Source of the DNA: Prevotella sp.
Lineage (GTDB): Bacteria; Bacteroidota; Bacteroidia; Bacteroidales; Bacteroidaceae
Direction: 5' to 3'
Assembly (NCBI GenBank): GCA_017619755.1
Contig: JAFZRU010000017.1
Span: 221,720 to 285,719, forward strand
Length of the DNA: 64,000 nt
The notes under the pieces: generated by a model
Told to the model about the DNA's origin: nothing
The model's input: only the letters and a program-made list of their open reading frames with translations
Databases searched by the model: none
Translations under genes and position numbers: made by a program
In this document: piece by piece, positions 50,032-63,240 of the stretch
How the letters are laid out: every line of letters begins with the position of its first letter
Numbering within the stretch: position 1 is the first letter of the stretch

Positions 50032-52869
50032 ATGAACATAAGAACTCTATTTGCAGCCGCCGCGCTCTCATTGTTCGGCGCAGCGGCGGTGATGGCACAG
50101 GAAATGCAACTGCCATCCATCCCTATCGACGACCAAGTGCGCATAGGAAAACTCGACAACGGACTTACCTATTACATCCGGCACAACGAGTACCCGGAAC
50201 ACGTGGCCAACTTCTACATCGCACAACGTGTGGGTTCCATTCAGGAGGAGGAGAATCAGCGCGGTCTGGCTCACTTCCTTGAGCACATGGCGTTCAACGG
50301 TTCGGAGAACTTCAAGGGCAACGGCATCATCGACTACACCCGCACGCTTGGCGTCTCCTTCGGCATGGACCTCAACGCATACACTTCCATCGACCAGACG
50401 GTCTATCGCGTGTGCAACGTACCCACCAAGCGGGTGTCGGCGCTCGACTCCTGCCTCCTCATCCTCAAGGACTGGTCCAACGGACTGCTGCTCGAAGAGG
50501 AGGAAATCGTCAAGGAGCGCGACGTCGTACATAATGAGTGGAGATTGGGAGAAGGGGCGCAGCAGCGCATGCAGACAAGATGTCTGCCCAAACTGTATCC
50601 TGGCTCCAAGTATGGAGAGCGCTTGCCCATCGGCCTCATGTCGGTGATTGACAACTTCAAGCGCCAGGAACTGGTGGACTACTACAAGAAATGGTATCGC
50701 CCCGACAACCAGGCCATCATCGTCGTGGGTGACATCGACGTGGACCACACCGAGGCGGAAATCAAGAGACTTTTCTCACCCATCAAGGTGCCTGCCAACG
50801 CCGCCAAGGTCGTGGCAGAGCCGGTGCCTGACAACAACGAGGCCATCTATGTCTTCGACAAGGACCGCGAGATGCCGCTCAACCAGATGATCGTCTTTAT
50901 GAAGCACGACGCCGTGCCTGACGAGGAGAAAACTTCCATCGCATACCTCATCCAGGATTACGTCACCGACATCGTGGGCAGCATGCTGGGAGCACGCTTC
51001 TCAGAGATGACGCAGGAGCCTGACTGCCCCTTCGTGCAGGCCATGTGCGATGACGAAAGCTACCTCCTCTCCAGAACCAAGGATGCCTTCACCATGATCG
51101 GCGTACCCAAGGAGGGGAAGGACATGGAGACGCTGGCAGCACTCATCAGGGAGGCCAAGCGCGCACGTGAATTCGGCTTCACCGGCACGGAGTATGAACG
51201 CGCCAAGAGCGAATACTTGGCCAGCCTCGAAAAGGCTTACACCAACCGCGACAAGAGGAAGAACGACGAGTATGGAAACGACTACCGCGACCATTACCTC
51301 ACCAACGAACCCATCCCGTCAATCGAATACCTCTACCAGACCATGACCCAGTTTGCCCCCATGCTCACCGTTGACTTGGTCAACGAGGCCGTCAAGGAAC
51401 TCATCTGCGAGAGCGACACCAACCTCGTGGTATGGGAAATGGGCAGGGAGGCCGAAGGGCTGACATACCCCACGGAGGCGCAGATGGCACAGACCGTCAA
51501 CGCCGTCAGGGCGGAGACGTTAGAGGCTTATGTGGACAACGTGAAGGACGAGCCGCTCATGCTGCCGGAGAACATGCCCGCCAAGGGTAGCATCGTCAGC
51601 GAGACGGAGAACACCCAATTAGGATACAAGGAACTGAAACTGTCCAACGGGGCCACCGTGCTGCTCAAGAAAACAGATTTCAAGGATGACGAAATCTTGC
51701 TGCAGGCTTTCTCCAAGGGTGGGTCAAGCCTCTATGGGGAAAAGGACTATGCCAACCTCAAGGCCTTCGACGACATCATAGGGTCCAGCGGCATTGGCAA
51801 CTTCTCCAGCAACGAACTGCAGAAGGCGCTCGCCGGGAAGAAGTGCAACGCCGACGCCACACTCAGCGTCACAAGGCAGCATGTCACGGCACACTCCACC
51901 CCCAAGGACTTGGAGACCATGTTCCAGATGATGTACTACTATTTCACCAACATCAAGAAGGACGAGAAGCAGGTGCAGAACCTCATGTCGCAACTCGAAC
52001 TTATGTTGAAAAACAAGAACTTGCAGCCGGCAGCCGTGTTCCAGGACTCCCTCACCAACACCATGTACGCCCACAACCCACGCTTCGCCAACATCCAGGT
52101 GGAGGACATCAAGGACATCGACTATGACCGCATCCTCGAGATACACAAGGACCGCTTCAAGAACGCTGCACAGTTCAATTTCGTCATCGTGGGCAATTTC
52201 GACGAGGACGCCATCAAGCCGTTCATCGAGCAGTATGTGGCCTCGCTGCCGGCTGACAAGAACGCCGCACCCGACAAGCAGAAGGATGTGCTGACCACCT
52301 TTAAGGGAAAGGTGAAGAACAACTTCACCGTCAAGACCGACTCCCCGCAGGCCATCTCCGTACTTGTATGGCAGGCTCCCGTGGACTATACGCTTGAGAA
52401 CAACGTCAAGGCCGACGCCATCGGTCAGGTGCTGATGCAAAACTACCTCGCCACCATTCGTGAGGAGGAGAGTGCTGCCTACACTTGCGCAGGACAGGGT
52501 AACATCGACATGAGGGGTGCGAAGCCGCTGGCGCGCATTTTGGGCATCAGCCAGGGCAACCCGGAGAAGAACGCCCGCGCCCTGGAACTCCTCTACAAGG
52601 GCTTCAACGACAACATGAAGAAGATGGACCTCGACGCACTCGGAAAGGTGAAGGAGTATATGCTCAAGCAGGCTGACGTCGATGCCAAGTCCAACCAGCA
52701 CTGGGTCAACGTGCTTACGGCCTGGAAAGACTATGGCGTGGACTTGCAGACCAATTACAAGAGCGTCGTGGAAAGCCTTTCTGCGAAGGACTTGCAGAAA
52801 TTCATGAAGAAACTCACAAAGTCGGGCAACCAGATGGAGTGCGTCATGATGACAGAACCAAAAGACTAA
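50032..52869 (+). CDS. Secreted M16 (insulinase) zinc peptidase
   Basis: The 945-residue periplasmic or secreted protease has a signal peptide (MNIRTLFAAAALSLFGAAAVMAQ) and an active M16 domain with the inverted zinc motif His81-Phe-Leu-Glu84-His85 in GLAHFLEHMAFNG, plus downstream NEWRLGEG. A second, non-catalytic M16 half follows (about 530-945). Such two-half proteins degrade small peptides in a closed chamber. A terminator hairpin follows the gene. Confidence 0.92.
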   Translation: MNIRTLFAAAALSLFGAAAVMAQEMQLPSIPIDDQVRIGKLDNGLTYYIRHNEYPEHVANFYIAQRVGSIQEEENQRGLAHFLEHMAFNGSENFKGNGIIDYTRTLGVSFGMDLNAYTSIDQTVYRVCNVPTKRVSALDSCLLILKDWSNGLLLEEEEIVKERDVVHNEWRLGEGAQQRMQTRCLPKLYPGSKYGERLPIGLMSVIDNFKRQELVDYYKKWYRPDNQAIIVVGDIDVDHTEAEIKRLFSPIKVPANAAKVVAEPVPDNNEAIYVFDKDREMPLNQMIVFMKHDAVPDEEKTSIAYLIQDYVTDIVGSMLGARFSEMTQEPDCPFVQAMCDDESYLLSRTKDAFTMIGVPKEGKDMETLAALIREAKRAREFGFTGTEYERAKSEYLASLEKAYTNRDKRKNDEYGNDYRDHYLTNEPIPSIEYLYQTMTQFAPMLTVDLVNEAVKELICESDTNLVVWEMGREAEGLTYPTEAQMAQTVNAVRAETLEAYVDNVKDEPLMLPENMPAKGSIVSETENTQLGYKELKLSNGATVLLKKTDFKDDEILLQAFSKGGSSLYGEKDYANLKAFDDIIGSSGIGNFSSNELQKALAGKKCNADATLSVTRQHVTAHSTPKDLETMFQMMYYYFTNIKKDEKQVQNLMSQLELMLKNKNLQPAAVFQDSLTNTMYAHNPRFANIQVEDIKDIDYDRILEIHKDRFKNAAQFNFVIVGNFDEDAIKPFIEQYVASLPADKNAAPDKQKDVLTTFKGKVKNNFTVKTDSPQAISVLVWQAPVDYTLENNVKADAIGQVLMQNYLATIREEESAAYTCAGQGNIDMRGAKPLARILGISQGNPEKNARALELLYKGFNDNMKKMDLDALGKVKEYMLKQADVDAKSNQHWVNVLTAWKDYGVDLQTNYKSVVESLSAKDLQKFMKKLTKSGNQMECVMMTEPKD

Positions 52870-52900
52870 CATCACAACAATTTTGATAGACAACAATGAT

Positions 52901-52942
52901 GGCCGGAAGGCGTGTGCTGTGAAGCACACCTTCCGGCCTTTT
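52901..52942 (+). terminator. Long terminator hairpin after the M16 gene
   Basis: GGCCGGAAGGCGTGTGCT (52901-52918) pairs with AGCACACCTTCCGGCC (52923-52938), with one bulged C, and is followed by TTTT. A variant of the same hairpin recurs at 63197-63240. Confidence 0.8.
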
Positions 52943-53169
52943 CAGAACTATGTGATATTCCTCATTTTTCCGTATAATTTTATTATGCAAAAAGCGGTGA
53001 TTTTCTCATTTTTTATTGCTATCTTTGCCAAGTCATTCATATTTTTGCTGCTTTTGAAATGCACCACTAAGGTAAGTGAAAATCTTGATAGGACAAAATT
53101 TTTGGTAACAAATTGTTACTCAGGAACTTGCAAATAATGTAAATACAAAATGGTGCGGATTTTGGGAAT
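52943..53169. other. AT-rich leader of the binding-protein/protease locus
   Basis: No gene is visible. It holds the -7 box at 53020-53027 and a long untranslated leader before ATG 53170. Confidence 0.45.
53020..53027 (+). promoter_or_regulatory. Probable -7 box for the binding-protein/protease locus
   Basis: TATCTTTG, 142 bp before ATG 53170, with only a weak -33 region. The leader is long. Confidence 0.45.
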
Positions 53170-54327
53170 ATGACATCACTACTCCATATCATACCCGTTG
53201 TCATCAATGCCGTTTTTGCAGCACTGGTGGCGGTGTTGCTGACGCGGGTGCAGAAGAGTGTCAAAGGTTTGACTGCCATTTTACTGGCAACAGCCCTCGT
53301 CTCCTGCACCAAGGAAGGCGATGTCATCTACCTGCCCGACCCTGCCGACATGGCAAAAACCAGTCCGCTTATCACCGTCGTTTACGACCCCGACGCTTTG
53401 GGCGACCGCTCCTACAACGACCTCATTTATCAGGGTGTGGAAGAGGCTGCCATGAAAAACGGGTTGCGCACCTTGCAACTGTCGCCATCGTCCATGGAAG
53501 AGGGAGAAGATTATTTGGAGAGCCTGTTCTCAAGGCTGAGCCAGGCATCCGACACGGTGAGACGGCTGATTATAGTCACTACTCCGGCATACGATGCTTT
53601 TCTGCGCAAGAACAGCCATCGCCTCGAAAGCAACAAATACGTTGACCTTCTCTACTTGGAATCGGACAGCCCCCTGCCCGACAAAGGTTCCACTCTGTTT
53701 TTGCAGTATTATGGTGCGATGTATGAGGCGGGAGTCATAGCCTCTGCATTCGTCAGTCATGGCCATGTCATTGGTGCAAATCCTGAGAACAAACCCGTAC
53801 ATGATGCCATACAAGGTTTTTCTGACGGTTTTTTGGCAGACTATTTCAAAAACGACACGAAAATTACTACTAACTATATAGGCGAAAAGGTGAATGAAGG
53901 CTTCGTGATAGAAGACAGCGTGGCTATAGGCATGTTGTACAAACAATACTCGAAAAACAGGATTGTGGTGCCTGTTTGTGGTGGCGCGTCGAATACGTTC
54001 TACCGCATGATTGAAACGTTCGAATCTTATAATGCGGAAAACAGATTCTTCTATATGGGCATCGATCAGGAAAAATCATCCATTTTCTGTTTTATGTCTG
54101 CCGTTAAGCATATTGACCAGGTGGTGGAAATGTGCATCGGACAATGGCTGTCGGAAAAGGGAATGCCGAAACACCAGACATTCGGACTGGAATCTGGATA
54201 TACAGAAATGGTGTTGAAGCCATTCACAGAAGATGTGAAAAAGGAATTGCAGGACAACTTTCCTGAAGCCGTCTCTCAAAAAATCCATGCGGAAGCACTG
54301 AGAAAGGAGGCGGAGTATGAGAAGTAA
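53170..54327 (+). CDS. BMP/PnrA-like substrate-binding lipoprotein
   Basis: The 385-residue protein resembles the basic membrane protein/PnrA group of type 1 periplasmic binding proteins: VVYDPDALGDRSYNDLIYQG near the start, then FLQYYGAMYEAGVIASAF and VVPVCGGASNTFY. Relatives bind nucleosides or similar small ligands, but no ABC transporter gene is present here. Two hydrophobic segments precede the lipobox LVSC. A start at GTG 53248 would give a classic 20-residue lipoprotein signal and may be the real one. It overlaps the next gene by 11 bases. Confidence 0.75.
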   Translation: MTSLLHIIPVVINAVFAALVAVLLTRVQKSVKGLTAILLATALVSCTKEGDVIYLPDPADMAKTSPLITVVYDPDALGDRSYNDLIYQGVEEAAMKNGLRTLQLSPSSMEEGEDYLESLFSRLSQASDTVRRLIIVTTPAYDAFLRKNSHRLESNKYVDLLYLESDSPLPDKGSTLFLQYYGAMYEAGVIASAFVSHGHVIGANPENKPVHDAIQGFSDGFLADYFKNDTKITTNYIGEKVNEGFVIEDSVAIGMLYKQYSKNRIVVPVCGGASNTFYRMIETFESYNAENRFFYMGIDQEKSSIFCFMSAVKHIDQVVEMCIGQWLSEKGMPKHQTFGLESGYTEMVLKPFTEDVKKELQDNFPEAVSQKIHAEALRKEAEYEK

Positions 54328-56731
54328 GAGGTTGGAGGTAAGAGGTACGAGGTTGGTAGCCGTCATTCTGACGTTGCTGACGATGTCCTTCATGGGCTGT
54401 AGGCAGGAGGATGACGTGACCGTGATTCAGTCACAGAGAGAGTGGGTGAAGAAAACGGTCGTGGTGGTGGCTCCCCAGAGCAAAAACGCGTCGGTCAAGG
54501 CACGCTTGGAGCGAACAGCCGACTGGTTCCTGACCAATTTCCATGATGCCCAGCTGCACGACACGCTTGCCATTGACATGCAGATAGAATGGCATGATGA
54601 AGACAACGAAGACCTCAGCCTGTTGAGCAGGGAGGTGTCGGAACGTGAAGACATCATCGGTGTCATCGGCCCTTTCTCAAGTGAACATTTGGAGATTTTT
54701 GTGCCGGCATGTCAGTCAAACCAGACTCCGCTGATTGCCCCCACGGCAAGCAGTGAGGAGATTATCCGCCGATATGCCGTGGCAAGTGCGGGAAGCACGA
54801 CAAACAAGAAACCCTTCCTTTGGTCGCTGACGGAAAGCGATGTGTCTTTCACGGAAACACTGATTGGAGGCTATAATGAAATGTTCAGATACGATGATAG
54901 CCATATTGCTTATCTGGCCGCTTTCTTCTCACCCGACAACGCCTACGGCAAGACTTTCTTTGACTGGGCACCGTTCTTTGCACAGGAAAGCGAGGTGGAG
55001 CTTGTATGCAACGGGCAATACCGCAGTGATGACGAACTCCAAAGCAAGATGGAAGAGTATTTGGATGGTGTATTAGGTAAGGATGATATTACGATGGTCA
55101 GCAGTTTCTGCGTGGTTGAAAGCATGAAGCAGATGTATGATGTGTCTCGAACCAGGCGTAAAAGTGTCATCAACAATCCTCAGTATCATTTCTTTTTTGA
55201 CACAGACGACCCTGATGACCCTTCGCTGGATTCCTGGTTTTTAATTTACTCTCTCTTTGTCGATATTTACTTTGCCTATAATGACTTGTATGTCGGGTCG
55301 CTTGACGGGTTGGGAGAACGCGGGGTGGCCATGCTGCAAGGCTGCAAGGGCTTCTCCCCATACGCCGACCCCACGACGGGGTTCGAATTCAGCTATGAGA
55401 AGAAATTCAATGCAAAACCCACGTTTGCAGAGTGCAAATTCTATGACGCCTTGATGATCATGGGGTTTGCGGCTTGCTATGAAGAGCATTTCACCAAGAC
55501 ACAAGACGGTATGTCGTTGGCGGCGCGTCATGCCGCCTTCAACAATGCCATCGTCGCCATCACCACCCCTGAAGACGGTACGCTCGGCGGGGCGGCATGG
55601 AACGCCACCCCCATGGATATTTATCTCTCCGAACTGGAAAACGGGAACAGGCTGCAGTTCAGAGGGGCCTCGGGCGATATCGGTTTTGACAAAGACACCT
55701 ATACCGCTTCTACGCACACCACATATTTGAAGTGGCAGATTGTGAACGGTGAGTTTGAACATCTGTATTACTATGGAAAAGGCGGCAGCGGACGGTTGAA
55801 CGACGCCCATGCCTCTTGGCAATATCTCTATGATTCAACCAAGGCAGAAGAGAACTTCCGACGGCAAGCCACAAGCGGAGTGGACATTTCCTATCCTGAA
55901 ACCCAAGGACAGTATGCCGTGCTTGTGCAGGGAAGCGAAGGCATGGCCAATTACCGGCATCAGTCAGGGGTCCTGTCCATGTATCAACTGCTCAAACGTG
56001 GCGGATTCGACGACGAACACATTATTCTCGTGATGGATGCTTCACTGGCATCTTCAACAGACAACAATGAACCAGGCATCATCCGTTCCAGCAAGGACGG
56101 CGAAAACCTGCTTGAAGGGGTGGTGGTGGACTATGATAACGCCGACCTGTCGCCCGAAAGCATTGCCGACATTCTGAAGGGCCGGCGCAGTGAAAGGCTG
56201 CCAGTGGTGGTCAGTGGCGACGAATGCACCAATGTGCTGCTCTATTGGGGCGGGCACGGACGGAGTGTGCAGCATGGCGGAAGCGACGAGTTCATCTGGA
56301 GGGATAATCCGTCCGGTAAAGGATTCACGGCTGACCTGATGAGGCAGACGGTGGAAGGCATGAGTGAGGTAAAGGCATTCCGGAAGTTGCTGATTATCGC
56401 CGAGGCATGCTATTCGGAGAATGTCATCAAGCCAGTGGAGGGAACGACGGGAGTAATGGCCATCTCCGGGGCAAGCGGTGAGGAACAGTCATGGGCAGAG
56501 AACTGGAATCCGGACTTGGGAAAATACGGCACCTGGATGAGCGACCGGTTCACCATGAACACGGTGAATTTCCTCACGTCGAATCCATCGGCCACCTACA
56601 GGGACCTGTATCTCTATTGCACCCGGCACACCATCGGCTCGCATGTGAGAATACTCAATTCATCACATTTTGATAACTTGTATGTCACCGGACCGAAGGA
56701 ATTCATCATGAAGAGTGGACTGTCCGAGTAA
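54317..56731 (+). CDS. Lipoprotein joining a type 1 periplasmic binding domain to a legumain-like (C13) protease
   Basis: The 804-residue lipoprotein has a basic start and the lipobox FMGC. Residues about 45-480 look like a leucine-binding-type domain (GVIGPFSSEHLEIFVPAC, TPLIAPTASSEEI). Residues about 520-800 look like a clan CD peptidase: YAVLVQGSEGMANYRHQSG, His647 in VLLYWGGHGR, Cys698 in IIAEACYSENV, then GVMAISGASGEE and WMSDRFT, as in legumain and GPI8. The ligand-binding domain could control or position the protease at the cell surface or in the periplasm. Translation is coupled to the PnrA-like gene by overlap. Its codon use is more AT-tolerant than the PUL genes. The fold calls are by eye. 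Confidence 0.75.
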   Translation: MRSKRLEVRGTRLVAVILTLLTMSFMGCRQEDDVTVIQSQREWVKKTVVVVAPQSKNASVKARLERTADWFLTNFHDAQLHDTLAIDMQIEWHDEDNEDLSLLSREVSEREDIIGVIGPFSSEHLEIFVPACQSNQTPLIAPTASSEEIIRRYAVASAGSTTNKKPFLWSLTESDVSFTETLIGGYNEMFRYDDSHIAYLAAFFSPDNAYGKTFFDWAPFFAQESEVELVCNGQYRSDDELQSKMEEYLDGVLGKDDITMVSSFCVVESMKQMYDVSRTRRKSVINNPQYHFFFDTDDPDDPSLDSWFLIYSLFVDIYFAYNDLYVGSLDGLGERGVAMLQGCKGFSPYADPTTGFEFSYEKKFNAKPTFAECKFYDALMIMGFAACYEEHFTKTQDGMSLAARHAAFNNAIVAITTPEDGTLGGAAWNATPMDIYLSELENGNRLQFRGASGDIGFDKDTYTASTHTTYLKWQIVNGEFEHLYYYGKGGSGRLNDAHASWQYLYDSTKAEENFRRQATSGVDISYPETQGQYAVLVQGSEGMANYRHQSGVLSMYQLLKRGGFDDEHIILVMDASLASSTDNNEPGIIRSSKDGENLLEGVVVDYDNADLSPESIADILKGRRSERLPVVVSGDECTNVLLYWGGHGRSVQHGGSDEFIWRDNPSGKGFTADLMRQTVEGMSEVKAFRKLLIIAEACYSENVIKPVEGTTGVMAISGASGEEQSWAENWNPDLGKYGTWMSDRFTMNTVNFLTSNPSATYRDLYLYCTRHTIGSHVRILNSSHFDNLYVTGPKEFIMKSGLSE

Positions 56732-56818
56732 GCAAGTGCGGTGATTCGTGGGTCTGGACATCTACCAAGATAAAAAACCGTTGTAAGATAAAATAAACAA
56801 TCAAATAGTATCAATCAA

Positions 56819-58465
56819 ATGAAAAAGAATAGAACAGCCCTGTTGCTCGCTTCGGCGATAGCCTTGACAGCAGTTCCGGTATTTACAGCATGTAGCGATG
56901 ACGATGACGACGATGGCAAAGTCGAAGACGTGACCGTACAAATCGATGAATTGCTGAAAGCGAGTGATTCAACCGTTAAACTTTGTGACAGTGGTGTCGG
57001 GAACCTGCTCGATGACTACCGCAACATCATCAAGGAGCTTTCGCAGAGCAATGATGCTGACGATATGATGGAACTGGACTATTACAAGCAGAGACTCCAG
57101 GAGATAGAGGCATACTGCGAGCACAAGTCGGACTCGGTGAAAGAAGCCGACCCCGCAGGCTATCAGCATGCACTTGATTCACTCAAGGCCCTTGACCCGG
57201 CTAACAGCTTGATGGCTGGCATAGGACAGATGTTCGGCACCTACGGATGGGCTGTCCTCTCCTATATGGACGTCGGCGCCGACGGGAAGAGAAGAAGGAT
57301 GTCAGCCCTGGCAATCTTTCCCCGCAATGCATTCTGCAACCTCAATGCCGAGCACGTGATCCTGTGTCCCCACTGGACGATTGCCAGCGACGGGGAACGC
57401 CCGACGAACTATGTCGAAGCGGAGGGAGCATTATCATACAAGAGCGACAATTCCAACGTGATGGCTGGAGAGTGGGCCGCCTTTGACGAATACCTTGTCA
57501 TCATGCCCGACTATGAAGGATATGGAGAGTCAAAAGATGTGTCACATCCTTATCTCATACGCGAAGTACAGGCACGACAGTGCATCATAGCCCTGCTGAG
57601 AGGTATCGGCTGGTTCACTTCCAACACAGACCTATGGGGGCCTGACGGACATGGTGAGAAGATCGACAAAGACTATAAAATCGTGATTGAAGGCTATTCG
57701 CAGGGAGGGGCGGTATCGGCCGCTACATACCGCTATTTCCTGGAACATCAGGGTGAGGCGTGGGCGAAGAACCTCCCTATTGCCGGTGCCGTATGCGGCG
57801 ACGGTCCTCACGACCCGTTCGCCACGCTGACCTACTATTGCACGACCAATTACGTGGAAATGCCGGTGGCGCCTGCCATGGTGCTCAAAGGACTGTGCGA
57901 CTACGACCCGGAGATGATAGCAGCCAAATGCACACCGGCAGACTTCTGCAACCCTGGGTTCATCAATTCGGGAATCTTCGAGGCTATCGCCTCCAAAAAC
58001 AACAATACTGACCAATGCAGCGCCTTCGTCTATAAATATGCGAAAGAGCATCCGGATGAGATCAAGTTGCGGGACGACGGCGGGCTGTCTGCCGACCAGA
58101 TGCTTACACCGGCGGCATACAACTATTTCGCCACCGGGAAACTCATCAAGGGTGCCAACTACCAGAAGCTGGCCATTCTCAAGAAATGTCTGCAGAAAAA
58201 CAGCGTGGCATACAACTTCACCCCGCCACCCTACGCACATTTCACCTTCTTCCACAGCGAGGGCGACAGGGTGGTTCCCTACGATAATTACCAGTCGATG
58301 AAGAAAGCCTGGGGAACGGGCAAACTGCGTGGAGTCACCTACAAGGGTGAAGGCAAGGAAAGCCATCTCGATGTGGGTACCATCTTCTTCAAAAGCTATC
58401 ATAGCGGACTGGTGGGAGACATCATAGACGGCGACTGGAAGTCAGGTGAAGAAACAAAGGAATGA
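56819..58465 (+). CDS. Secreted alpha/beta hydrolase (lipase/esterase-like) lipoprotein
   Basis: The 548-residue lipoprotein (FTAC followed by SDDDDDDG, an acidic surface-export pattern) has a helical N-domain (about 35-125) and an alpha/beta hydrolase domain. The nucleophile lies in IEGYSQGGAVS, the likely Asp in FFHSEGDRVVPYDN and the His in ESHLDVG. The oxyanion region and the Ser motif resemble secretory lipases. The substrate is unknown. It lies 87 bp after the protease gene in the same direction. Confidence 0.8.
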   Translation: MKKNRTALLLASAIALTAVPVFTACSDDDDDDGKVEDVTVQIDELLKASDSTVKLCDSGVGNLLDDYRNIIKELSQSNDADDMMELDYYKQRLQEIEAYCEHKSDSVKEADPAGYQHALDSLKALDPANSLMAGIGQMFGTYGWAVLSYMDVGADGKRRRMSALAIFPRNAFCNLNAEHVILCPHWTIASDGERPTNYVEAEGALSYKSDNSNVMAGEWAAFDEYLVIMPDYEGYGESKDVSHPYLIREVQARQCIIALLRGIGWFTSNTDLWGPDGHGEKIDKDYKIVIEGYSQGGAVSAATYRYFLEHQGEAWAKNLPIAGAVCGDGPHDPFATLTYYCTTNYVEMPVAPAMVLKGLCDYDPEMIAAKCTPADFCNPGFINSGIFEAIASKNNNTDQCSAFVYKYAKEHPDEIKLRDDGGLSADQMLTPAAYNYFATGKLIKGANYQKLAILKKCLQKNSVAYNFTPPPYAHFTFFHSEGDRVVPYDNYQSMKKAWGTGKLRGVTYKGEGKESHLDVGTIFFKSYHSGLVGDIIDGDWKSGEETKE

Positions 58466-58518
58466 TCTCTTTTTTACTTTATATGCAGACTTAGATTTAC
58501 TTTAAAAACTTTTTAAAG

Positions 58519-61500
58519 ATGAAAAGAACGTTTTCAATCATCATTTCCACCGTCATTATGACGATGCTGAATGTGATGAACACAAATGCTGCCATCCATT
58601 GGGATTATAACAGCACAACCCATACATTATCTATTTCTGGAACGGGGGCGATGGCCGATTATGACATTAGCGAAAACACCCCCTGGTACAGTCGTAAAGA
58701 CGACATTACGACAGTTGTCGTGAAATCCGGGGTGACATCCATAGGAAACAATGCGTTTGCTAAGTTTCCAAAACTTGCCTTTATCTCACTTCCCAACGGG
58801 TTGCTGTCCATCGGCGACTACGCCTTTGCGGAAACCGCCGTGCAACAGCTCGTCATCCCGGCATCGGTGCAGACCATCGGCGGGGCGGCATTCCTGTGGT
58901 GCGACCAGTTGAGAACCATCTATCTTGGTGGCAGCATCACCAGGATGGGACATCCGGGGACCACCGACTCCGACTATGGCGCTTTTGCCTACTGCGATGC
59001 GGTATCCGACATCTATTTCTACCAGAACAACATCTCTTCTATCAGTTGGAACAACACATGGGAGTTCAAGGACAACAAGGCAACCAAAGTGCATGTCTAT
59101 AAGAGTGCGTCATTGCCAAGTGGACTGAACTGCAACTTCGTCAAGGATATCGGTGATGACATGCGCAGTGTCGGACAAAGTGACATGACAGACCCAGACA
59201 ATCCTTACGAAATATACTACAAGTGGCAATTGGATTTCATCATCGCCATGATGAACAGCACTTCCATTGACAATACCGAGGACTGTAATTTCTATTTGAA
59301 ACTGATGGCAGACTTGGCGTATGACGAGACGGAAGAAAACAATTTCACCCCTGTCGGCTCTGAAGAGAAGAGCTTCTTCGGCTCGCTCGACGGCAATGGA
59401 CACACGATAAGCGGCATCAACATCAAGACCGATAAGGATTACGTGGGAATCATTCCCTATGTGACGGGAACCGTGAAAAACATCAAGTTTGACAACATTC
59501 ACATACAAACCACCGGTTCGTACGCCGGCGTAATGGGAGGTGCCAACTTTTCCACCATAGATAATATATGTATCGAAAACTCGTCGTTCCAAGCAGACAA
59601 TTGCGTGGGACCGTTGTTGGGTATTTTGGAAGACGCAGTTACTGTCAGAAACTGTCATGTCAAATCAAGCGTGACTGTCAATGGTTTGTCCGAGGAAAGT
59701 ATTTACTCAAACGCAGGAGGACTGATAGGCAAGGCCAACGGCGGTTCCCTGTCGGGATGCTCAAGTGCCGCCCAAGTCTCCGGAAACGGACAGTGCGTGG
59801 CGGGACTGGTTGGTTATAACAAGGCCGATCTGACCGACTGCATCTATCTGGGGGCATCCATCATCGGAACCAACGCGTATGCGGTTTCCGATAATTACTT
59901 GGCAAATGTAAGCAACTGCTTCTACACAGAGCCTACATTAACTGACGGTGAAGCCCAACTGGCATACACACTCACAATGGATGAAGGTGTGACATTGACG
60001 AACACCGTAGTAAGCACATACGGAACAAGCGACTTCCCGGGGATTACATCCTATAATGACATTCTTTTCTTTGACGGGAATTACTATGCTAAACAAACTG
60101 CCTCTCTGACATTCGCCAATCAGGACGCATGGTATGTTGTCAATGACGAGTGTGTGAGGACAAACAGCATTCAGATGCCGGGACAAGAAACCCACGTTAG
60201 CCTGTATGCCCTTGACGGAACTGGAACAGAAGAGGATCCCTATCTCATCAATAACACCAATGACATGGACTACTTGGCATCGAGAGTCAACAGTGGAAAC
60301 TCTTATGAAGGCAAGTATGTGGAATTGACAGCCAGTTTGGTATATGATGGGACAGAAAACAATTACACACCTGTCGGCAAACATGATAACCCGTTTGATG
60401 GCGTGTTTGACGGCAAAGGGCATAGCATAAGCGGCATATATGTAAGAAAATCTGGAAGCACGTATAGTAGTAGCAACGGTTACAATGGCATATTCGGTGT
60501 CGTAGGCTCCAATGGCATTGTCAAGAATCTTGTCAGCGACTCCAACACCTTCACGGGACATTATACGGGCGGTATCGTCGGCTATAACTTGGGCATCATC
60601 GAAAACTGCCGCGCCACTTCCACCGTGATCCTGAAGGCGGCATGGAGCGAATACTACAACACTTACAAACAATGGAATGGAACGAACTACATTGGTGGAA
60701 TTGTAGGTTATCAGCCCAGCACTAACGTCAACACCGACGCACCCCGTATCATCCGGGGGTGTGTCAGTGCCGCATACATTGACAATGACGGCCATTATGC
60801 GTGCAAAGAATTTGGCGGAATTATTGGTTCTAACAACCGCAGCACTCCCAACATCCAGCACTGTTTGTATTTAGGTGACCATGTGAGTGTGGGAACAGAC
60901 TTGGGAGGCAGTGCAGAAGGTGCAATTGCCGGATGGACTTTCGTGACAACAGGTTACACCCCCAACAGTTATTACACCGACAATTCTCTCGTCGGCGACT
61001 ATAACAACAATTTCCTGCTGGCCCACAGAATCATACTTGCCGAAGACGTGGAAATCGATGATGAGAAGACCGTCTATGGAGAAGGCGATTATATAGGTGT
61101 CACGGCATACGACAACGGAGTGCTCTTTTACGATGGAGTCTATTATGCACCGCAGAATCTTGAAGTCACACTGAAACTCGCTGAAACCTCTGCGGAAGGG
61201 GTACAGCCACTTGGACTGATGATTCTTCCCTATTCCTTTGGAGATACAGGCGATGCTACGTCCGACGGCATGACACTTACAATGGGGTCTGCCGACATCT
61301 ACGTCGCAATTGCTTCAAGAATAGCCATCGCCAACGACAACTGGATTTACTATCGTTCGGAAACTTTCTCCGACATATCGGAAACGGACAAGCTGCTCGT
61401 CCTGCACAGCGAAGAGGAGTTGGCAAGGGTTGCCTACGAGGTGAACGTGCTTGGAAACAACTTCGAAGGATGGACGGTGAAGCTTGCCGATGACAAGGAC

Positions 61501-63114
61501 TTTTACATGCCAGGTCACAGATGGGAACCGGTGGGAAGCATCGCTATGTTGGACATAAACAAACTTTTCAAGGGCACTTTTGATGGAAACCGCAGGAACA
61601 TCAGAGGCATCAATGCGTCCTTAAACGACAGTCCTGATGAATACAGCAACGATTACATCGGACTCTTCAGCATTTTGCCTGAGGGAGCGGTGGTGAAGGA
61701 TCTGTTCATACAGGAAGCCACTGTGACAGGAGCAAGAAACGCTGGAGTAGTGGCAGGAGAAAACCGTGGAACGGTGACGAATTGCCATATCGTTGAGGCT
61801 TCAGTTTCCGCCGTGGCCGACAATGCCGAATATGTAGGAGGCGTGACCGGAAACAATCTCGGAGGAACCATCCAGAACAGCAGTGTCAACAAGACAGCCA
61901 TCAGCGACGGCGACGGTTGCCAGAATGTTTCGCACTTCGGAGGCATCTGCGGCGGAAACACCACATACGCCCAGTCGCTGATAAACATGGAAACGGGTGA
62001 TGTGACCACCAATGTCAGAGAGGCGACGATGAGCGACAACATTTTCTTCGGTAGCATTCACGTCAGCGGCGCAGACCCCCTCGGTCATTTCGGATCCATC
62101 ACGAGCGACAACAGGGCGGCAACCGACCGTGAAGGAAATGAATACCCCGCCCACGCCAGCAACAACTACTACGATAACGCACCTGTAGTGGTGGACAACG
62201 ATGTGCCGTCAACATATTGGGGCGATGATACACATCCATACGACACATCCCTCGGAGTCGGCATCGGGCAGACCAGCCCGAACGGAAACCTCGGCTATTC
62301 AAGCACCGATGTGGAAGGGGTTGCAGAACCCTTGGCAGTGGATGGCCGAGACAATACAGACGCACTGAACCTGCTGATAACCCGCAACCAATACTTTGAC
62401 CGCCCGGAGAACTCTCTCATCTACCATGCAAGGCATACTTTCACTCTCAAAGGACGCACATTCTACAAAGACAAGGGATGGAACACCATCTGTCTGCCGT
62501 TTGACATGGCCATGACATACTCCTCGCCTTTCGGACAGGCTGATGCCATGGAACTGACCGGATCTTCATTCAACCTGGCTACCAAGACGCTGACACTTGA
62601 CTTTGCCGATCCCGAGGGATGGGAAGTGAAGGCTGGAAAACCCTATGTCGTGAGATGGTGGTTTGAAGGAGAAAATACGGTTGACCCGGTGTTCGAGGAT
62701 GTGACGGTGCTGACAGCGGAATTAATAGACGAGGCGACCGACTACATCACATTCAAGGGAACTTACGCCCCCGTCGTCTATGAGGAAGGAAGACAAAATC
62801 GGAGCATCCTGCTCATGGGGGCAGACAACAAACTCTATTATCCCAATGGTGAGGCCGTGTCGTTTGCCAACGCTTTCCGTGGTTATTTCCAACTGGCCGA
62901 CGAACTCCATGCCGGTGACAAGACTTCAATGGTCAGTGCATTCGTACTCAACTTCAATGGTGGAGAAACTGGCAATGAGGAAATCCAAAACCTCAAACCT
63001 CAAACCTCAAACCTCAAACCTCTCTGGTTCACCCTCGACGGTCGCCGCATCAACGGCCAACCCAACAGGCCAGGCGTTTATATCAACAATGGCAAGAAAG
63101 TAGCCATCAAATAA
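58519..63114 (+). CDS. Large BspA-like / GLUG-repeat surface protein
   Basis: The 1531-residue secreted protein has a signal peptide and a BspA-like opening (TTHTLSISGTGAMADYD, then LRR_5 repeats such as LAFISLPNGLLSIGDYAF). Long stretches of GLUG-type repeats follow (GGLIGKANGGSLSGCSSAAQ, GGIVGYNLGIIENCRATS, AGVVAGENRGTVTNCH). A C-terminal beta domain (about 1300-1490) and the sorting-like tail WFTLDGRRI...GVYINNGKK close it. A 7-bp repeat encodes the linker before this tail. It is probably an adhesin or other binding protein. It follows the hydrolase gene by 53 bp. Confidence 0.82.
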   Translation: MKRTFSIIISTVIMTMLNVMNTNAAIHWDYNSTTHTLSISGTGAMADYDISENTPWYSRKDDITTVVVKSGVTSIGNNAFAKFPKLAFISLPNGLLSIGDYAFAETAVQQLVIPASVQTIGGAAFLWCDQLRTIYLGGSITRMGHPGTTDSDYGAFAYCDAVSDIYFYQNNISSISWNNTWEFKDNKATKVHVYKSASLPSGLNCNFVKDIGDDMRSVGQSDMTDPDNPYEIYYKWQLDFIIAMMNSTSIDNTEDCNFYLKLMADLAYDETEENNFTPVGSEEKSFFGSLDGNGHTISGINIKTDKDYVGIIPYVTGTVKNIKFDNIHIQTTGSYAGVMGGANFSTIDNICIENSSFQADNCVGPLLGILEDAVTVRNCHVKSSVTVNGLSEESIYSNAGGLIGKANGGSLSGCSSAAQVSGNGQCVAGLVGYNKADLTDCIYLGASIIGTNAYAVSDNYLANVSNCFYTEPTLTDGEAQLAYTLTMDEGVTLTNTVVSTYGTSDFPGITSYNDILFFDGNYYAKQTASLTFANQDAWYVVNDECVRTNSIQMPGQETHVSLYALDGTGTEEDPYLINNTNDMDYLASRVNSGNSYEGKYVELTASLVYDGTENNYTPVGKHDNPFDGVFDGKGHSISGIYVRKSGSTYSSSNGYNGIFGVVGSNGIVKNLVSDSNTFTGHYTGGIVGYNLGIIENCRATSTVILKAAWSEYYNTYKQWNGTNYIGGIVGYQPSTNVNTDAPRIIRGCVSAAYIDNDGHYACKEFGGIIGSNNRSTPNIQHCLYLGDHVSVGTDLGGSAEGAIAGWTFVTTGYTPNSYYTDNSLVGDYNNNFLLAHRIILAEDVEIDDEKTVYGEGDYIGVTAYDNGVLFYDGVYYAPQNLEVTLKLAETSAEGVQPLGLMILPYSFGDTGDATSDGMTLTMGSADIYVAIASRIAIANDNWIYYRSETFSDISETDKLLVLHSEEELARVAYEVNVLGNNFEGWTVKLADDKDFYMPGHRWEPVGSIAMLDINKLFKGTFDGNRRNIRGINASLNDSPDEYSNDYIGLFSILPEGAVVKDLFIQEATVTGARNAGVVAGENRGTVTNCHIVEASVSAVADNAEYVGGVTGNNLGGTIQNSSVNKTAISDGDGCQNVSHFGGICGGNTTYAQSLINMETGDVTTNVREATMSDNIFFGSIHVSGADPLGHFGSITSDNRAATDREGNEYPAHASNNYYDNAPVVVDNDVPSTYWGDDTHPYDTSLGVGIGQTSPNGNLGYSSTDVEGVAEPLAVDGRDNTDALNLLITRNQYFDRPENSLIYHARHTFTLKGRTFYKDKGWNTICLPFDMAMTYSSPFGQADAMELTGSSFNLATKTLTLDFADPEGWEVKAGKPYVVRWWFEGENTVDPVFEDVTVLTAELIDEATDYITFKGTYAPVVYEEGRQNRSILLMGADNKLYYPNGEAVSFANAFRGYFQLADELHAGDKTSMVSAFVLNFNGGETGNEEIQNLKPQTSNLKPLWFTLDGRRINGQPNRPGVYINNGKKVAIK
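62991..63018 (+). repeat. Four-copy CCTCAAA heptanucleotide repeat inside a coding region
   Basis: CCTCAAA occurs four times without interruption, followed by CCTCTCT. It encodes the NLKPQTSNLKP linker before the sorting-like tail. Because 7 is not a multiple of 3, gain or loss of one unit shifts the frame. Confidence 0.8.
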
Positions 63115-63196
63115 ACAACAAACACAATTTCCGTGATGAAAAAGAATAATGACCGAACCTAAGGACGAGTAAAATTGCACTTTTGACAGACCACCG

Positions 63197-63240
63197 ATAT
63201 GGCCGGAGGGCGTGCACAGTAGCATACCTTCCGGCCATAT
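63197..63240 (+). repeat. Hairpin related to the M16 terminator
   Basis: ATATGGCCGGAGGG (63197-63210) pairs with CCTTCCGGCCATAT (63227-63240). The sequence is a variant of the hairpin at 52901-52938 in the same orientation, but no T run follows. Confidence 0.65.

Follow-up and report, generated by a model that had tools for sequence, protein, structure and literature searches.

A legumain-type protease fused to a ligand-binding domain and paired with a second binding lipoprotein in Prevotella: a predicted ligand-regulated surface module

A stretch of 64,000 nucleotides from Prevotella sp. (GenBank assembly GCA_017619755.1, contig JAFZRU010000017.1, positions 221,720 to 285,719 of the forward strand), referred to here at its full length as the window, encodes a lipoprotein, SBP-C13, in which a type 1 ligand-binding domain and a legumain-type C13 peptidase domain are joined in one chain. 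The gene overlaps that of a second binding lipoprotein of the Bmp/PnrA family (Table 1), and the two recur together across the family to which the window belongs. Each domain comes from a known family; it is the arrangement as a system that appears to be new. An earlier note on this DNA had known of no described system of such make-up, and no description of such a gene pair was found in the openly licensed literature, which leaves subscription journals mostly outside and does not cover preprints. The domains, active-site residues, lipoprotein signals, pairing, gene linkage and a block of near-identity with a relative are read from the sequences themselves. From them we propose, with a confidence that we put at about even, that the pair forms a surface-anchored, ligand-regulated, asparaginyl-type protease module that matures co-encoded surface proteins.

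The fusion protein and its overlapping partner

Sequence comparison confirmed the C-terminal half of SBP-C13 as a C13 (legumain-type) peptidase domain with a complete active-site set. PF01650, the profile that the earlier note had proposed for checking this half, scores 130.1 bits over residues 532-789 against a cut-off of 22.8, and a sequence search of the PDB with the single protein reaches legumain at E 9.5e-24. A family profile of 42 rows (A1, the window protein and 41 homologues found by searching with the fused protein) matches human legumain at E 5.7e-57 along the entire catalytic domain. The order of His (GGHGR, at residue 645), Cys (EACYSE, at 696) and DRFT (at 743) motifs on which the assignment to C13 was first based is thus borne out; a further motif, NYRHQ, lies at 545. 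His647, Cys698 and Arg547 are invariant in A1, whereas 40 of its 42 rows share Asn545 and 37 share Glu696, which Asp replaces in the remainder. Arg547 and Glu696 presumably correspond to the S1 pocket of legumain, from which we also take the roles of His, Cys and Asn. Among Pfam matches at E<=1 no C11 domain was reported for SBP-C13, only C13 and a weak ANF_receptor. Eukaryotic legumain has an inhibitory prodomain C-terminal to its C13 domain; SBP-C13, 804 residues long, stops shortly after its C13 match, which extends to residue 789, so the protein lacks such a prodomain. A PF01650 search of the genome of the window (85.9% complete) found one place, the SBP-C13 gene.

The same 42-row profile also matches GPI transamidase (E 6.3e-50) and plant asparaginyl ligases (from 2.4e-46; peptide asparaginyl ligases 1.6e-45). 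These matches are what favours a transpeptidase, an enzyme that would cut at Asn and join surface proteins to an amine acceptor as GPI transamidase and the plant ligases do. We hold it to be very unlikely: the profile matches human legumain better, the recurrent neighbour families (few of which were identified) gave no sign of an acceptor pathway, and the candidate substrates described below, MACPF and hydrolase proteins, already look lipid-anchored.

The N-terminal half is, judging by its family profile, a type 1 binding domain of the branched-chain-amino-acid-like kind. In the window protein ANF_receptor scores 12.2 against a cut-off of 25.4, which is below the Pfam threshold, and the half taken alone matches no Pfam family at E<=0.01. 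At the same E-value ANF_receptor is matched by 34 and Peripla_BP_6 by 30 of the 42 A1 members, and a profile of the N-terminal family (A6) finds solved branched-chain-amino-acid binding proteins (4gnr at E 6.5e-13, 3td9 at E 1.1e-7), with an alignment that spans most of its length. Together these matches argue for a type 1 binding domain rather than a chance likeness, and support the fusion of such a half to C13 that the earlier note had described. The profile check that it had suggested for the binding domain came out favourably for the family and not for the window's own protein, which stays below the cut-off and is not among the rows that match Peripla_BP_6.

The upstream protein passes the PF02608 (Bmp/PnrA) cut-off, likewise proposed as a check, with 36.7 bits against 24.1. 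PF02608 is matched at E<=0.001 by 19 of the 35 members of its family alignment (A2), and the A2 profile reaches the solved structures of Lbp (3.7e-17), BmpA (2.5e-12) and TmpC (9e-11). Its frame and that of SBP-C13 are both present as first reported and overlap by 11 bases. The listed ATG of the Bmp gene (53170) gives a long N-terminus without signal character (53170-53307), whereas translation from a GTG at 53248 (residue 27) opens with a normal lipoprotein signal that ends at the lipobox Cys46. This GTG is probably the true start, the ATG being too far upstream. The consensus TAnnTTTG, which we take to be the Bacteroidota -7 promoter element, is matched on the + strand between 50001 and 63272 at 53020 and 53040 only, which is weakly consistent with one operon.

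Table 1. Features of the window discussed in the text
Feature	Position	Strand	Basis or remark
Block of four genes (Bmp, SBP-C13, hydrolase, LRR/GLUG)	52900..63132	+	identity to RUG13814; left edge approximate
Possible Bacteroidota -7 promoter element TATCTTTG	53020..53027	+	consensus TAnnTTTG
Bmp/PnrA-like binding lipoprotein, 385 aa as listed	53170..54327	+	PF02608 36.7 bits
SBP-C13 fusion lipoprotein, 804 aa	54317..56731	+	lipobox Cys28, then RQEDD
Type 1 (branched-chain-amino-acid-like) ligand-binding domain, predicted, residues 42-512	54440..55852	+	profile A6 against PDB
Peptidase C13 (legumain) domain, residues 532-789	55910..56683	+	PF01650 130.1 bits
Codon starts of Asn545, Arg547, His647, Cys698	55949, 55955, 56255, 56408	+	conserved in 40, 42, 42, 42 of 42
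Alpha/beta-hydrolase (secretory-lipase-like) lipoprotein, 548 aa	56819..58465	+	CSDDDDD at lipobox; PF03583 22.9 bits
BspA-type LRR/GLUG protein, 1531 aa	58519..63114	+	LRR_5 61.7 bits, Glug 39.3 bits

Surface-exported lipoproteins of Bacteroidota carry acidic residues directly after the lipid-bearing Cys, and the RQEDD that follows Cys28 of SBP-C13 resembles such an export signal. A crude pattern, applied without a control set, found a lipobox-like site in 39 of 42 C13, 30 of 36 Bmp-labelled and 21 of 25 neighbouring MACPF proteins; the 36 Bmp-labelled rows include an f2 protein (L061:3698-5038; f2 is described below) that A2 leaves out. Among the lipobox-bearing proteins an acidic residue at +2 to +6, again without a control set, was present in 36 C13, 29 Bmp and 21 MACPF sequences. 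With an acidic stretch after the Cys, as in surface-exported lipoproteins, sensor and protease would face outward, and from these signals we infer a surface location for the pair.

Recurrence and distribution of the pair

The Bmp and SBP-C13 families are very nearly inseparable. In a sample of 301 genomes of the window's family the fusion was matched in 48 (in G279 by its binding half only) and the Bmp family of the pair was present in 45; 43 of the 48 fusion genomes have Bmp and 43 of the 45 Bmp genomes match the fusion (Fisher 6e-44), so that the search of other genomes proposed in the earlier note shows the pair to recur. The two Bmp genomes outside the fusion set are G216, in which Bmp is followed by broken-frame pieces of the binding domain of the fusion and the contig stops there, and G271, in which Bmp is truncated by the contig end. 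Bmp lies directly upstream of 35 of the 42 inspected SBP-C13 genes, with overlap of the open reading frames (ORFs) as called in 32 of these 35; two of the other seven genes sit at contig ends. Downstream of one SBP-C13 gene that has no Bmp lies a gene for a 1354-aa protein with a dockerin domain at its end (L072:2352-6416), and one pair has an SprA-type secretion gene (PF14349) behind it (L049:2-6376), a single case and possibly chance.

A C13 match of any kind was found in 64 of the 301 genomes. The linkage counts given below used 59 stronger C13 matches in 47 genomes; neighbourhoods were systematically read for 42 of the 59, and those of L096, L097, L099, L101 and L102 by profile only. Beyond the family, a phylum sample of 395 genomes, with up to two candidates scored per genome, gave no further full-length fusion and 43 further matches, all partial and within the binding half. 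An order sample of 247 genomes (up to four candidates scored) added two fusion genomes; samples of their families have the fusion in 1 of 13 and 2 of 100 genomes, the two included. The module thus has a scattered distribution, whose centre in these samples is the window's family. Plasmid and phage collections gave no match to the fusion, and none of the four proteins of the window's block matched a defence-system model at E<=0.01.

The absence of an ABC transporter near the pair, pointed out in the earlier note, is supported by a motif test for the ATPase alone: an ABC-ATPase-like ORF was found in only 1 of 41 loci, the window included, 5.6 kb from the C13 gene. This result bears on a reading as nutrient scavenging, in which surface protease and hydrolase would digest proteins and lipids and the binding lipoproteins would capture the products with no signalling involved. 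Both binding-domain families are nutrient-uptake families and a lipase-like gene stands in the window's block, yet the near absence of ATPase motifs does not fit uptake, nor do the numerous MACPF neighbours. The binding domain is fused to the protease in all 42 A1 rows, though the set was gathered with a fused query, and a legumain-type pocket would fit limited cutting better than digestion. On balance we regard scavenging as unlikely.

Neighbouring genes and an exchanged block

In the wider family, the strongest neighbours of the pair are arrays of genes for MACPF pore-forming lipoproteins, some with BACON domains, a link that the earlier note missed because other genomes are needed to see it. 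MACPF genes lie upstream of 12 of the 42 fusion genes. In an independent Pfam search of the 301 genomes, 32 of 50 MACPF matches had a fusion gene no more than 9.2 kb away; genomes with MACPF made up 17 of the 48 that match the fusion and 12 of the 253 that do not (Fisher 2.4e-8). In G235, which was scored as unlinked, a MACPF array is followed by Bmp and the first part of an SBP-C13 frame, cut by a contig end; it is in fact linked, which makes the linkage count conservative. MACPF frames of at least 650 aa account for 18 of the 32 linked matches against 1 of the 18 unlinked, that one being in G235. The order MACPF-Bmp-C13 recurs at L096, in a genome of another family.

Two further families occur near the pair. 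The f2 proteins (L046:9575-10927 and relatives, A3) are lipoproteins, mostly of 300-480 aa, whose genes often stand between MACPF or f6 genes and Bmp; the members scanned had no Pfam match, and their best PDB relative, at E 0.13, is unconvincing. The f6 proteins (L067:6153-8444 and relatives, A4), of about 660-800 aa, occur at five loci, three times upstream, at the place that MACPF takes in others. The idea that f6 is a hidden MACPF was rejected, as only its N-terminal stretch matches the N-terminal stretch of (BACON-)MACPF proteins, and f6 was not counted as MACPF.

The MACPF linkage could also be read as self-protection or quality control, the protease clearing misfolded or self-directed copies of neighbouring surface proteins; in Bacteroides, a surface lipoprotein protects the producer of CDCL (PMC11169675). 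Two ligand-binding domains would be superfluous for such a role, a MACPF match is absent from the window's genome, and in 30 of the 42 rows the upstream stretch that was read holds no MACPF gene. We consider it improbable.

In a quick tree without bootstrap the window falls in a branch of 14 rows (SH-aLRT 100) with other neighbours. Hydrolase genes, counted from all-against-all protein families, adjoin seven of these rows, at L048 on the opposite strand. Overall, 7 of the 42 SBP-C13 genes, the window's included, have a homologue of the hydrolase as the first or second gene behind them on the same strand; the hydrolase itself is marginally below the PF03583 cut-off of 23. LRR/BspA-family genes lie upstream in four rows of the branch, besides the window's own downstream one, and two LRR/BspA-type neighbours were confirmed as LRR_5 by Pfam. 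The tail of the window's LRR/GLUG protein resembles, as we read it, sorting domains of the type IX secretion system (T9SS); T9SS sorting domain models gave no match on this protein. Both settings meet at L066:1344-12038, where a tandem Bmp-C13-Bmp-C13 and then the hydrolase family stand behind a MACPF gene.

The four genes from Bmp to LRR/GLUG are shared with RUG13814, a near relative and uncultured Prevotellaceae genome, presumably from rumen, going by its name. From 53.0 kb the window is 97-100% identical per 250-base bin to two of its contigs (L032 and L033); identity is 90% in the bin at 52.75 kb and 93% in the last bin (63.0 kb), and it is 77-92% in the left flank (46.25-52.5 kb). On the right the match stops at 63132. 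The two contigs meet within the fusion gene, so the continuity of the RUG13814 copy is itself deduced. As the simplest account, the identity pattern suggests that the four genes were recently exchanged as one block. Just behind the block in RUG13814 (L032:7947-8250) lies a fragment that resembles an IS66 accessory gene, followed by a 116-base copy of window positions 52827-52942 (the end of an M16 gene and its terminator), an arrangement that would fit a transfer of the block by recombination or by an insertion element. The edges of the block in the window (52846-52938 and 63146-63236) carry similar terminator-like sequences, 72% identical over 93 bases.

The earlier note had suggested that the protease processes the GLUG/BspA protein encoded nearby. 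The association is strengthened because the four genes look co-exchanged and LRR/BspA-type neighbours occur in the same branch, and the identity of the block, as the best evidence, suggests that this protein belongs to the system; as a substrate of the protease it is a candidate.

Proposed function and comparison with known systems

Surface proteases of the C11 type in Bacteroidales, fragipain and doripain, cut and activate toxins, BcpT and the pore-forming CDCL included (PMC9308784, PMC11169675), and mammalian legumain (AEP) processes the MACPF protein perforin-2 (PMC7614779). These precedents led us to the ligand-regulated surface maturation protease proposed above, for which location, sensing, gating, specificity and substrates are all predicted steps. 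Two binding domains on the outer surface would report small ligands, amino-acid-like for the fused domain and nucleoside-like for Bmp, both guessed from family. The ligand state would set the activity of C13 or its access to substrates, and the protease, with a legumain-like preference for Asn/Asp, would cleave co-encoded proteins, secreted or on the surface, in a limited way, leading to their maturation or release. Candidate substrates are the MACPF lipoproteins in one branch and the hydrolase lipoprotein and BspA/GLUG protein in the window.

A more specific version, which we put forward only tentatively and as less likely than not, has a ligand-gated surface legumain license co-encoded pore-forming or other effector lipoproteins: the binders would read metabolites of neighbours or lysed cells, after which C13 would activate or release MACPF. 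The pair would then be a portable regulator trading cargo cassettes, namely MACPF arrays, BACON-like proteins, hydrolases and BspA proteins.

Several observations weigh against these proposals. The window's own genome, at the completeness given above, has no MACPF match at E<=0.01, so the link to pore-formers rests on relatives, and 11 of the 12 MACPF-bearing rows fall in another branch of the quick tree. Neighbours vary, 14 of 42 rows having none of the four labels used (though L053 and L068 have an LRR-family neighbour), and five fusion-matching genomes have no Bmp partner. Among the C11 precedents, BcpT was active enough without both doripains (PMC9308784), and substituted candidate C11 sites in BSAP-1 were dispensable. 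Ligand binding, regulation and cleavage remain predicted.

Lipoproteins serve Bacteroidales both in competition and in building their surface, and how these proteins are activated often lacks an explanation. If the maturation protease exists as proposed, surface proteins would be switched on by a metabolite without passage through the cytoplasm; the licensing version, if true, would be a bacterial counterpart of the legumain processing of perforin-2. What triggers MACPF proteins is a question left open by a 2025 paper on BSAPs, and the recurrence of the order MACPF-Bmp-legumain leads to a claim on that trigger that can be tested.

PnrA/Bmp nucleoside-binding and LivJ-type binding proteins, whose domain families are those of the binding parts described here, normally serve ABC importers, and PnrA-type uptake systems have permease and ATPase genes alongside. 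The present cassette differs in that it has no adjoining importer and that one binding domain is fused to a protease. The BSAP toxins are MACPF lipoproteins that carry an export signal and in some cases a BACON domain at the N-terminus (PMC12853789), much like the MACPF neighbours of the cassette. Unlike the cassette, they are described in the available part of that paper with no mention of a C13 gene or binding lipoprotein; the linked MACPF frames near the cassette are longer, and a BSAP locus has its MACPF gene, whereas the window's locus has none. Mammalian legumain is a C13 enzyme that processes a MACPF protein, as is proposed for the cassette, but it is lysosomal and not ligand-gated, and cleavage in the cassette is predicted only.

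Fragipain and doripain are, like SBP-C13 as predicted here, surface lipoprotein cysteine proteases of the same bacterial order, and as C11 enzymes they belong to clan CD. The protease of the cassette differs from them in being C13, fused to a binding domain, accompanied by a second binding lipoprotein and in many cases a neighbour of MACPF genes. Cleavage by C11 enzymes takes place after Arg/Lys. The toxin BcpT is plasmid-borne, with its C11 proteases encoded apart (PMC9308784). By analogy, the cassette would put another clan-CD protease to the sort of task that C11 enzymes perform for Bacteroidales toxins.

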